Shown here piece after piece: positions 47,149-51,254 of a stretch of 64,000 nt of DNA (positions are counted from its first letter, which is position 1; each line of letters opens with the position of its first letter). The position numbers and the translations under genes were made by a program. The stretch spans positions 1 to 64,000 of the forward strand of contig CACZCX010000008.1 of the NCBI GenBank assembly GCA_902779875.1, in the 5' to 3' direction. The stretch is from an uncultured Bacteroidales bacterium. Its GTDB lineage: Bacteria; Bacteroidota; Bacteroidia; Bacteroidales; Bacteroidaceae. The notes under the pieces were generated by a model that saw nothing but the letters and a program-made list of their open reading frames with translations, did no database searches and was not told where the DNA came from.

Positions 47149-47264
47149 CGGCCGATGCAACACTTTTGCAACGCTTTTTTGTTGCCGGAGCACCTCTGCA
47201 GCCCTACATTTGCATCGAAACGCTAAAAACCGAACGATATACAATAAACCAAATCTTCCTCGTT
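47149..47264. other. Non-coding stretch before the REP-like cluster
   Basis: Contains the short repeats TTTGCAACG and TTGTTGCC and a TACATTTG -7-like box on the + strand (47205-47212) with no gene behind it. Nothing else is supportable. Confidence 0.35.
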
Positions 47265-47434
47265 TGCCAGAGTGTCCCACACCTACCCCTGCGAGAACCT
47301 ATTCTCGCCGGGGTGAGTGCGGGACACTGGCTTATTTTGCTGGGGTGTCCCGCGCCCATCGGCCCTACAAGCGTTGTGAGAGGGGTGCGCGTGGGACACT
47401 TTGGCAAGAAAGTGAAGGAAAGGGGTCTGACCCC
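47265..47434. repeat. REP-like palindrome cluster (two tandem hairpins plus GGGGTCTGACCCC)
   Basis: First unit (47267-47332): GCCAG-GTGTCCC pairs with GGGACAC-TGGC, with an inner GCGAGAA / TTCTCGC stem. Second unit (47342-47405): GTGTCCCGCGC pairs with GCGCGTGGGACAC. Then GGGGTCTGACCCC (47422-47434), a perfect odd palindrome. The shared GTGTCCC/GGGACAC ends suggest related elements in tandem. It lies just upstream of the rplU promoter. No transposase lies in the window. Confidence 0.75.
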
Positions 47435-47462
47435 AATCCGCCGAAAAAAAGCAAAAAATTAT

Positions 47463-47579: not shown

Positions 47580-47897
47580 ATGTACGTTATTGCTGAAATT
47601 CAGGGACAGCAGTTCAAGATTGAAGAGGGAATGAAGCTGTTCGTGCACCACATTCAGGACGTTGAGGCTGGTGCAAGCATTGAGTTCGAGAAGATCCTTC
47701 TCGCCGACAAGGACGGTAAGGTCACTGTAGGTGCTCCTACCATCAAGGGCGCAAAGGTAGTATGTGAGGTCAAGAGCGCACTCGTTAAGGGTGACAAGGT
47801 TCTTGTATTCCACAAGAGAAGAAGAAAAGGTTACCGTAAGCTCAACGGTCACCGCCAGCAGTTCACAGAGCTTCTGGTAAAGGAAGTAGTAGCATAA
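47580..47897 (+). CDS. rplU: Ribosomal protein bL21
   Basis: A 105-residue L21: [20 protein letters not shown] at the N-terminus, and the C-terminal signature [20 protein letters not shown] that contacts 23S rRNA. Full family length. It has a canonical promoter, then the rpmA gene 21 bp downstream; L21-L27 is a near-universal pair. Confidence 0.97.
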
Positions 47898-47918
47898 CCC
47901 TAAAAACATTAGAAAGAT

Positions 47919-48119
47919 ATGGCACATAAAAAAGGTGTAGGTAGTTCTAAGAACGGCCGTGAGTCTGCCAGCAAGCGTCTGGGCGTTAAGATTTGGGGTG
48001 GACAGTATGCAAAAGCAGGTAACATCGCACTGGTTGACGGAACCGTAGAGTTCAAGAAGGGCCGCAAGGACAGAAGTTATGTATCAGTTATCCCCGTTGA
48101 GGAGAAAGCTGAGGCCTGA
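47919..48119 (+). CDS. rpmA: Ribosomal protein bL27 with 24-residue internal in-frame deletion
   Basis: A 66-residue L27; the usual length in this order is about 86-89. The N-terminus [20 protein letters not shown] and the C-terminus [18 protein letters not shown] are normal. After AGNI (residue 36, ending at 48026) the sequence jumps directly to ALVDGTV. Missing is the block that in relatives reads roughly IVRQRGT..HPG.N.G.GKDHTLF, part of the conserved beta-barrel core. The frame is kept. L27 lies near the peptidyl-transferase centre through its N-terminal tail. Either a real internal deletion or a sequence/assembly error; the latter is quite possible given the broken gapA. Confidence 0.93.
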
Positions 48120-48134
48120 TAAACCAAACAACTT

Positions 48135-48168
48135 AAAAGAGGCTCACTTATTCCGTGGGCCTTTTTTA
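48135..48168 (+). terminator. Intrinsic terminator of rplU-rpmA
   Basis: AAAAGAGGCTCAC / GTGGGCCTTTTTT stem, loop TTATTCC. Nearly the same stem is used after serS (49504-49538). Confidence 0.85.
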
Positions 48169-48186
48169 TTTAAAGATTAAAATCCG

Positions 48187-49506
48187 ATGCTCACACTCAA
48201 ACAGATCACAGAACAGACCGATACAGTCATTGCAGGTCTTAAGAAGAAGCATTTCAAGAATGCAGAGGAGGCTATTGCCCAGGCCATCGAGTTGAACGAC
48301 AACAGAAAGAAGGCCCAGGCACAGTTGGATAACAATCTTGCCGAGGGCAAGACACTTGCCGCCAAGATCGGACAGGCCATGAAGGCTGGCAACAAGGAGG
48401 AGGCCGAGCAGGCCAAGGCCCGTGTTGCTGAGCTCAAGGTTGCAGCTGCCGAGCTTGAGGCCAAGAAGGAGCAGGCTGAGAATGATCTGACCGCACTGCT
48501 CTGCACAATTCCCAACATACCCTACCCTGAGGTTCCCGAGGGCACCTGCGCCGAGGACAACTGGGTAGTCAAGTCAAACCTCAAGGAGTGTGTGATAGGA
48601 CAGGATACCGTAGGCAACTGGACCTGCAACCCCCAGAATGGTGAGGCTAAGGTTCCCCACTGGGAGCTCGCCAAGAAGTACAACCTGATTGACTTTGACC
48701 TGGGTGTCAAGATTACAGGCGCCGGATTCCCCGTATATATTGGAAAAGGTGCTCAGCTGCAGCGCGCACTCATCAACTTCTTCCTGGCCGAGGCCAACAA
48801 GGCCGGCTACACGGAGATCATGCCTCCCACCGTCGTTAACCAGGCATCGGGTTACGGTACAGGCCAGCTCCCTGACAAGGAAGGACAGATGTACCACTGC
48901 GAGGTCGATGACCTTTACCTCATCCCCACCGCCGAGGTTCCCGTAACCAACATCTACCGTGACGTAATCCTGGACGAGAAGCAGCTCCCCATCAAGAACT
49001 GCGCTTACACACAGTGTTTCCGTCGTGAGGCCGGTTCATACGGCAAGGATGTACGCGGTCTGAACCGTCTGCATGAATTCTCCAAGATTGAGATAGTACG
49101 TATCGATACACCCGAGCACTCTGCCGAAAGCCACAAGGAGATGCTTGCCCACGTAGAGGGCCTGCTCCAGAAGCTGGAACTCCCCTACCGCATACTGCGT
49201 CTGTGCGGCGGCGACCAGAGCTTTACATCGGCTATCTGTTATGACTTTGAGGTTTACTCCGAAGCACAGGGCCGCTGGCTTGAGGTTTCATCGGTATCGA
49301 ACTTTGACACATACCAGGCCAACCGCCTCAAGTGCCGTTACCGCAAGACCGGCGAGAAGAAAGCCGAGCTCTGCCACACGCTGAACGGTTCTGCTCTGGC
49401 ACTGCCCCGAATAGTGGCGGCCATCCTGGAAAATAACCAGACCGATAAGGGAATAAGGATTCCCAAGGCGCTGGTTCCTTACACGGGATTTGAAATGATT
49501 GATTAA
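48187..49506 (+). CDS. serS: Seryl-tRNA synthetase
   Basis: A 439-residue class II synthetase. The N-terminal coiled-coil arm (~residues 30-110, rich in Glu/Lys/Ala) binds the long variable arm of tRNA-Ser. The catalytic domain shows GAQLQRALINFFL, motif 2 in TQCFRREAGSYGKDVRGLNR (~275-295) and motif 3 in LNGSALALPRIVAAILENNQ (~400-420). Family length, monocistronic between two similar terminators. Confidence 0.96.
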   Translation: MLTLKQITEQTDTVIAGLKKKHFKNAEEAIAQAIELNDNRKKAQAQLDNNLAEGKTLAAKIGQAMKAGNKEEAEQAKARVAELKVAAAELEAKKEQAENDLTALLCTIPNIPYPEVPEGTCAEDNWVVKSNLKECVIGQDTVGNWTCNPQNGEAKVPHWELAKKYNLIDFDLGVKITGAGFPVYIGKGAQLQRALINFFLAEANKAGYTEIMPPTVVNQASGYGTGQLPDKEGQMYHCEVDDLYLIPTAEVPVTNIYRDVILDEKQLPIKNCAYTQCFRREAGSYGKDVRGLNRLHEFSKIEIVRIDTPEHSAESHKEMLAHVEGLLQKLELPYRILRLCGGDQSFTSAICYDFEVYSEAQGRWLEVSSVSNFDTYQANRLKCRYRKTGEKKAELCHTLNGSALALPRIVAAILENNQTDKGIRIPKALVPYTGFEMID

Positions 49507-49542: not shown

Positions 49543-49550
49543 TATCTTTG
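49543..49550 (+). promoter_or_regulatory. -7 promoter element of the BspA-like gene
   Basis: TATCTTTG immediately follows the serS terminator and leaves a leader of about 20 nt before the ATG at 49575. CTTG 20 bp upstream is a weak -33. Confidence 0.55.
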
Positions 49551-49574
49551 AGGCGACCAACATTTCAAGTCATT

Positions 49575-51254
49575 ATGAAAAAAGCTTTACTCGCATTACT
49601 ATGTACAATCCTGACCATCACAGCCAAAGGCCAGGTTGTCAATGGCATATGTTATTACAAGTTAGATGACTCACATGTGTCAGTGGTAGTTGACCAGAAG
49701 TGGGACAGTCAGAGTTCCACCATGATAAGGCATGACTACAAGGGCCAATTATCCATTCCCCCATCGGTCGTAATTGACAACAAGACATATACCGTAACCA
49801 AGGTTGACCTTTACGGTTGCTCGGAACTTACAGGCATAAGTTTGCCTAACACCCTTGAAGAGATTGCCGAGGCCGGATTCTCAGACTGTTCAAGCCTGAC
49901 CCGCGTCACTCTCCCCTCATCGCTTAAGAAAATCGGCCGCTTTGCATTCCAGTCCTGTGACAACCTGCAGGAGTTGACCATCCCGGCCTCCGTTCAGGAG
50001 ATAGGAATGAATGCGTTCTGCACTTTCAGCGACAACTTCAAGAAGCTTACCATAACCGATCTGGCCGCATGGTGCGATATTGAGATGGAAGGTATCCTCC
50101 TTACCGACGGCACAGTTTATCTCAATGACAAGCCGCTCACCGACCTTGTCATCCCTGAGGGCGTAAAGACAATCAAGCCTTACGTATTCTGCGGATTCAA
50201 AGGCATAACATCCGTACATATTCCCGCATGCGTTGACTCCATCGGCTATAACGCATTCATGGGCTGCACATCAATCACCAAGGTATCGGGCGATGACATT
50301 GCGTCATGGTGCGGAATACACTTCGGCCCCACTACGATTCTCAACACCGGGAATCCGCTGAATCTCTCCAATCCCGTATTCTATTCGGAAAACCTTTACA
50401 TAGGAGGCAGTTCCATAACCGAGCTCACCATTCCCGAGGGTGTCGATTCAATAGGCAGTTGCGCTTTCATCAATCTCAAGAGCCTCACCAAGGTCTCACT
50501 GCCGTCCACTCTCAAGTATGTAGGGCCCAATGCATTCCAGGATTGCATAAATCTTATGATAGCCGATGTAACCTCTATCCGGGACTATTGCGGGATTGAG
50601 TTCGCATCGCTTGACAGCAATCCTTTCCAGGATTATATAACATACCGCGCATTCACCTGGCTGCTTGTAAACGGGAATTACGTTCATGAAGGAAACAGGG
50701 TTCTCTCTATCCCTGACGGCATAACCGAGGTCAAGGCCAACGCTTTTGCCAATGCCGATCCTACTGAGACCGTAATAATCCCCGCATCGGTCACCAAGAT
50801 AGGCACGAACGCTTTCCGCAACTCCGTGACCAACAGGTTCCACACCCTCTGCATCAAAGGTCATATTGAGGATATGGGCGAACTTGCATTCGGCAGCTGT
50901 CCTTTTATAAACACCATCTACATGGAGGACCTGAACCCCTCTGCCATACCGGCCAACACCTTTACCAACTACTATATTCCTCCTACGAACCTGACACTTG
51001 GCGCTGACTACAACTACAAGAACACCAAGCTCATGGTACCCGCCGGCACCAAATCCATCTATGAAAGTACCGATGGATGGAATCTGTTCGAGAATATAGA
51101 GGAGTATGACGTCGCCGCCGTTAACGGCATTGGACTCTCAAATGCTGCGACAACGGAGTTCACCCTTGACGGACGCCCTGCCGGCCCCGATTACAAGGGC
51201 ATAATACTTGTCAGGATGCCCGATGGCACCGTCCGCAAAGAACTTAGGAAATAA
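49575..51254 (+). CDS. BspA-like leucine-rich-repeat surface/secreted protein
   Basis: A 559-residue protein: a signal peptide (MKKALLALLCTILTITAKG), then BspA/TpLRR-type leucine-rich repeats such as LTGISLPNTLEEIAEAGFSDC, TRVTLPSSLKKIGRFAFQSC and ITSVHIPACVDSIGYNAFMGC. The units vary in length, with short non-repeat breaks. The C-terminal segment FTLDGRPAGPDYKGIILVRM, then GTVRKELRK, resembles short C-terminal tails seen on many Bacteroidales secreted proteins. BspA-like proteins often mediate binding to host or other surfaces; no ligand is known here. The ATG at 49575 is chosen, excluding the upstream in-frame start that lies at the -7 box. Confidence 0.85.
   Translation: MKKALLALLCTILTITAKGQVVNGICYYKLDDSHVSVVVDQKWDSQSSTMIRHDYKGQLSIPPSVVIDNKTYTVTKVDLYGCSELTGISLPNTLEEIAEAGFSDCSSLTRVTLPSSLKKIGRFAFQSCDNLQELTIPASVQEIGMNAFCTFSDNFKKLTITDLAAWCDIEMEGILLTDGTVYLNDKPLTDLVIPEGVKTIKPYVFCGFKGITSVHIPACVDSIGYNAFMGCTSITKVSGDDIASWCGIHFGPTTILNTGNPLNLSNPVFYSENLYIGGSSITELTIPEGVDSIGSCAFINLKSLTKVSLPSTLKYVGPNAFQDCINLMIADVTSIRDYCGIEFASLDSNPFQDYITYRAFTWLLVNGNYVHEGNRVLSIPDGITEVKANAFANADPTETVIIPASVTKIGTNAFRNSVTNRFHTLCIKGHIEDMGELAFGSCPFINTIYMEDLNPSAIPANTFTNYYIPPTNLTLGADYNYKNTKLMVPAGTKSIYESTDGWNLFENIEEYDVAAVNGIGLSNAATTEFTLDGRPAGPDYKGIILVRMPDGTVRKELRK

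Follow-up and report, generated by a model that had tools for sequence, protein, structure and literature searches.

The rpmA gene of a draft genome from a gut Bacteroidaceae genus encodes, as assembled, a ribosomal protein L27 that lacks 24 internal residues. Does a living lineage make this shortened protein, or has an ordinary gene lost part of its sequence during assembly? The gene (47919..48119, + strand) lies in a stretch of 64,000 nucleotides, referred to here as the window. The source genome, a draft 86.5% complete, comprises 2,136,222 bases on 74 contigs and is very probably metagenome-assembled, to judge from its nearest named relatives, the majority of which have a MAG label or a name in MAG style.

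The open frame of rpmA has 66 codons for amino acids, and AGNI is joined straight to ALVDG. Compared with relatives, the gap amounts to 72 bases, or 24 codons. In an alignment with 19 relatives, the window L27 is normal up to AGNI and from ALVDG on, and one block of 24 columns is absent, filled in L038 by 24 residues. The deletion junction (48026..48027, + strand) reads GCAGGTAACATC|GCACTGG in the DNA. In L005, TC is common to the bases before the block and to the block end, which leaves the exact position of the join ambiguous by two bases. The same two-base overlap is visible when the rpmA of another locus (L002:1497-1760) is compared with the window's own genome by BLAST: query bases 2-109 match window 47919-48026 and query bases 180-264 match window 48025-48109, leaving 110-179 unmatched in that genome. 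The window contains no N bases and the join is seamless, in the middle of a contig of 152,618 bases. Since a random join keeps the reading frame one time in three, the in-frame loss says little by itself. The 24 residues are truly absent from the assembled sequence.

The surroundings of the gene are intact. Upstream, rplU (47580..47897, + strand) encodes ribosomal protein L21 of 105 aa in an open frame; this protein is 95-96% identical to its counterparts in three other genomes that gave a match. Downstream, a terminator-like stem, GGCTCAC..GTGGGCC followed by a T run (48140..48170, + strand), can be read directly from the sequence. The open frame behind it (48187..49506, + strand; 439 aa), which we take to be serS for seryl-tRNA synthetase, is also intact, and its protein is 94% identical to those of genomes G032 and G002 over the first 171 aa. 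The gene order rplU-rpmA-serS is that of bL27 loci in genus relatives, as in these two genomes. Thus, the open frames and the alignment bear out what a sequence-only reading had described: a 66-residue L27 with an AGNI-ALVDG join, canonical terminal parts (the first 36 and last 30 residues match relatives), a preserved frame and undisturbed neighbors.

No RNA family reaches the gathering score in the window, no tRNA gene was found there, and none of its eight tandem repeat rows is closer than 1.8 kb to rpmA. Upstream of rplU, we notice a dispersed repeat of about 140 bases (window ~47262-47408), of which at least nine other partial copies, 69-84% identical, occur in the genome, and an adjoining one of about 30 bases (~47408-47448) with at least nine other copies in the same genome at 89-96% identity; 40 of 48 candidates were scored for these counts. 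By eye, the product of the 568-aa frame at window 49548-51254 resembles a BspA-type leucine-rich repeat surface protein.

Comparison with sister genomes, run as a check on the gene, recovered full-length rpmA in most of the genus. Among 37 genus genomes, the window's included, 29 match all 79 positions of Pfam PF01016, each with one L27 match; five have no match and three a partial one. The partial matches cover positions 1-35 in the window's genome, 43-79 in G002, and 1-34 and 24-79, apart from each other, in G032. A gapless internal deletion of L27 is seen in the window's genome only, among the eight without a full-length match. Of the five genomes without L27, only G019 has an L21 match, a partial one, and in none of the five is the start of SerRS matched; this suggests that a stretch of the assembly is missing, rather than that a single gene was lost. 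Two of the genomes surveyed, G017 and G019 (98% and 100% complete), have no match to L27 or to the N-terminal part of SerRS; these gaps probably reflect the same assembly weakness.

A wider search led to the same picture. We located 80 of 525 named loci by L21, several of which are the same records as the genus genomes; the closest are Bacteroidaceae or Bacteroidales drafts, several with deer, sheep or horse in the title. An L27 of 85-93 residues is encoded at 75 of the 80 and a longer one with the block present at two, while one further locus has the block in a frame that stops at 67 residues at a contig end. The remaining two have no frame, their contigs ending 75-83 bases past rplU. No L27 without the block occurs among the 78 readable loci. 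The two longer proteins (L084 and L111, from two Tannerella MAGs; 157 and 170 aa in total) carry a long C-terminal extension rich in Ala, Val and Glu. In the family sample, L27 is matched in 281 of 301 genomes and in none of the other 20. Full-length status was judged here from the E-values of the genome table, and two of the 281 are worse than 1e-30: that of the window's genome and that of G043, whose match is cut by its contig end. One degenerate 10-residue peptide pattern for the junction gave 0 matches in genome_contigs, a collection from which the own or very near genomes may be missing. Among the literature titles and abstract starts searched, no title concerns a shortened L27.

We then come to the left side of the junction. 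A 213-base tract (47814..48026, + strand), comprising the end of rplU, the spacer and the 5' part of rpmA, is identical to the L023 locus of genome G025, which belongs to another clade, and the right end of this tract is the deletion junction. The window and L023 differ at 26 of 234 positions in 47580-47813, at 0 in the tract, and at 10 in 48027-48119; their serS genes are 86-88% identical. Over the opening 108 bases of rpmA, seven loci of other species (L002, L004, L017, L019, L022, L023, L037) show 100% identity to the window; their serS, where covered, is 84-90% identical over its first 514 bases. An exact match ending at AACAT extends for at least 107 bases in seven of the 31 genus loci compared and for 212 bases in L023. 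Wherever this motif was found and read, the next base is C in some species and T in others.

In order to place the window, we compared clade A (L002, L018-L022, L037) with clade B (L004, L017, L023, L025), using seven and four loci, respectively, or six and three in serS. The window carries the clade A allele at 17 of 19 clade-separating sites in the rplU segment 47580-47813, and is A-like at all nine in 48027-48186. The flanks are not purely A-like, with the A allele at two of three sites upstream of rplU and at six of seven in serS, which weakens the case for a chimera. At both separating sites in 47814-48026 the window carries the B allele; these two are the only ones in the tract, and at one of them, 47918, the base of the window may be no more than the ancestral one. 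All 28 clade A-B pairs differ in the tract, at 4-10 sites, and the window differs there from four clade A genomes at 4-6 sites, inside the range of 1-8 among clade A members. For pairs with serS identity below 88%, an exact run of at least 200 bases occurs in two of 362: window-L023 (213 bases) and L012-L015 (483 bases). This comparison included 30 of 31 sequences, one being dropped as it had no usable serS stretch; L036, in which the start of rpmA is N, had been left out beforehand. Judged from these alleles, a short, foreign-looking tract that ends exactly where 72 bases are gone may be taken as a moderate sign of a chimera. The L012-L015 run shows that long identity between species occurs at this locus in other genomes too, through real exchange or an error of the same kind.

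Other assemblies of the genus fail at or near the same place. In G032, a gap of 17 Ns starts right after ...GCAGGTAACAT, one base from the window junction; behind the Ns, 33 bases of the left flank are repeated and then the gene continues in full. G002 has an N gap from the end of rplU into rpmA, and in G019 a 123-kb contig ends inside rplU. Trouble at L27 affects eight of 37 genomes in the genus, compared with 18 of the 280 family-sample genomes that belong to other genera (Fisher p 0.005, with completeness unmatched between the groups). A contig end lies within 700 bases of L27 in nine of the 32 genus genomes with a match, where rounded numbers and sizes of contigs would predict 2.0. We set this excess aside as an argument, because seven of the nine ends fall toward rplU, and it is on that side that dispersed repeats occur in the window.

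Taken together, we consider local misassembly the most economical account, and we put the probability that the gap is a local assembly error in this draft genome at about nine in ten. The sequence-only reading had left the choice between a remarkable reduced L27 and an error in the assembly; the evidence favors the error, and the reduced protein stands as the less supported of the two. Between the end of rplU and rpmA codon 36, the species of the genus are nearly identical over a length beyond that of a typical k-mer, so the assembly graph would branch just after ...GGTAACAT. An assembler or scaffolder would then have left this shared arm, which looks foreign, and continued at GCACTGG in the right arm that belongs to the genome itself; such a wrong join would have dropped the 72 bases. 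What is directly observed is the absence of the block, the identity of the left arm across species, the N gap one base away in a relative and the full-length genes of relatives. The junction also falls at the end of a stretch common to other genus genomes; we infer that several such species shared the sample, as well as the assembler step itself. In the organism itself, L27 is very probably an ordinary protein of about 90 residues.

Such an error has parallels. At shared stretches, k-mer graphs can take wrong paths (for background, see PMC8172020 and PMC7111523), and the latter study counts Ns put in during scaffolding despite overlapping flanks as one type of local assembly error. The local errors of MAGs described there include both unsupported local joins and Ns of this kind, the latter being what G032 displays at this locus; the window join differs from them in having no Ns and in keeping the reading frame. 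What speaks against misassembly is that the join is seamless, in frame and mid-contig, whereas chimeric sequences in a mock community were always at contig ends, according to the available part of PMC8172020.

The main alternative, a real in-frame deletion, would leave the lineage with a 66-residue L27 in which the N-terminal tail and the two final strands are retained and function is partial or absent. The N-terminal tail of L27 reaches the peptidyl transferase centre, and the barrel anchors the tail. In the window protein, the tail sequence MAHKKG... is present, as in all 20 aligned sequences; the first 36 residues are identical to those of L038, L039 and L041, and the last 30 have one or two differences to each. 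The protein differs from bL27 (PF01016, TIGR00062) in the 24 central residues, which contain RQRG and other nearly invariant positions. The window L27 fails to match the whole PF01016 domain of 79 positions, as the central block is absent; only positions 1-35 are matched, with 56.2 bits against a cut-off of 20.5, and it falls below the equivalog cut-off of NCBIfam TIGR00062 (51 bits against 90.35).

AlphaFold2 gave the window protein a pLDDT of 53.8 and a pTM of 0.24, compared with 67.9 and 0.52 for full-length L038. The predicted strands of L038 are at residues 36-38, 45-47, 51-53, 59-61, 65-71 and 77-83, and the lost residues 37-60 take away two of them wholly and two partly. In the model of the window protein, the last two strands are kept, together with a low-confidence helix turn at 17-20. 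With alignments as shallow as 20 and 18 rows, and a full-length model that is itself no better than fair, the difference between the two proteins is only indicative.

A defective L27 is compatible with viability, since E. coli without rpmA lives. In the accessible text of PMC4647459, such cells grow slowly with little 70S peak, and a preprint, likewise seen in part (PMC12871816), gives plating counts 10,000-fold lower for saturated cultures; loss of the protein, impairing as it is, need not be lethal. The open frame and the two bases shared by the block ends would also suit a real deletion. Against it stand the loss of a conserved block in a protein that models poorly, and the full-length gene in 29 of the 37 genus genomes, the seven others besides the window's having no match or an N gap. 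The block is also found at 78 of the 80 loci (of 525 named), the other two stopping at a contig end before it; the one degenerate junction pattern had 0 matches in genome_contigs, and in a related genome it is the assembly that breaks, one base away. We therefore regard a real deletion as improbable, at long odds against it.

Still less probable is a homologous exchange with a clade B relative, running from 47814 on, whose imprecise right end deleted the 72 bases in a living population. It would account for the 213-base identity with G025 in a genome that elsewhere lies nearer to clade A. Exchange at this locus is possible in itself, because L012 and L015 share an even longer run at a serS identity below 88%, and may be another case. 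These two loci (genomes G021 and G018) have 483 identical bases over rplU-rpmA and serS genes 85.7% identical; both contigs end within 625 bases of rpmA, that of G018 just before the rplU start codon, and the identity may reflect exchange or chimera. For the window, however, a short import would have to coincide with a deletion at its edge that was probably harmful, and the tract edge is one base from the point where another genus assembly fails.

That the assembly caught a minority strain or a pseudogene copy, with a full-length rpmA lying elsewhere in the genome, is the weakest explanation, with hardly any chance of being right: a second copy could be missing from a draft 86.5% complete, but the second full-length rpmA that the sequence-only reading had in mind was looked for in this incomplete draft and not found, the window gene being the sole L27 match and the L002 rpmA giving no BLAST match for the missing block, and each of the 29 full-length genus genomes has a single L27 match.

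A misassembled join thus remains the preferred reading, and an ordinary gene with a sequence error is the likeliest case. For drafts of this kind, our findings advise caution, as what looks like an in-frame deletion from a conserved gene can come from a silent join where different species share a stretch of sequence; the suspect join here passes the open-frame check and even the Pfam cut-off. It is very doubtful that a living gut Bacteroidaceae lineage makes a 66-residue L27, with the tail kept and much of the anchoring barrel gone. If it did, the function of the tail would be separated from the fold, and the deletion would serve as a natural experiment on the part of L27 that the ribosome requires.
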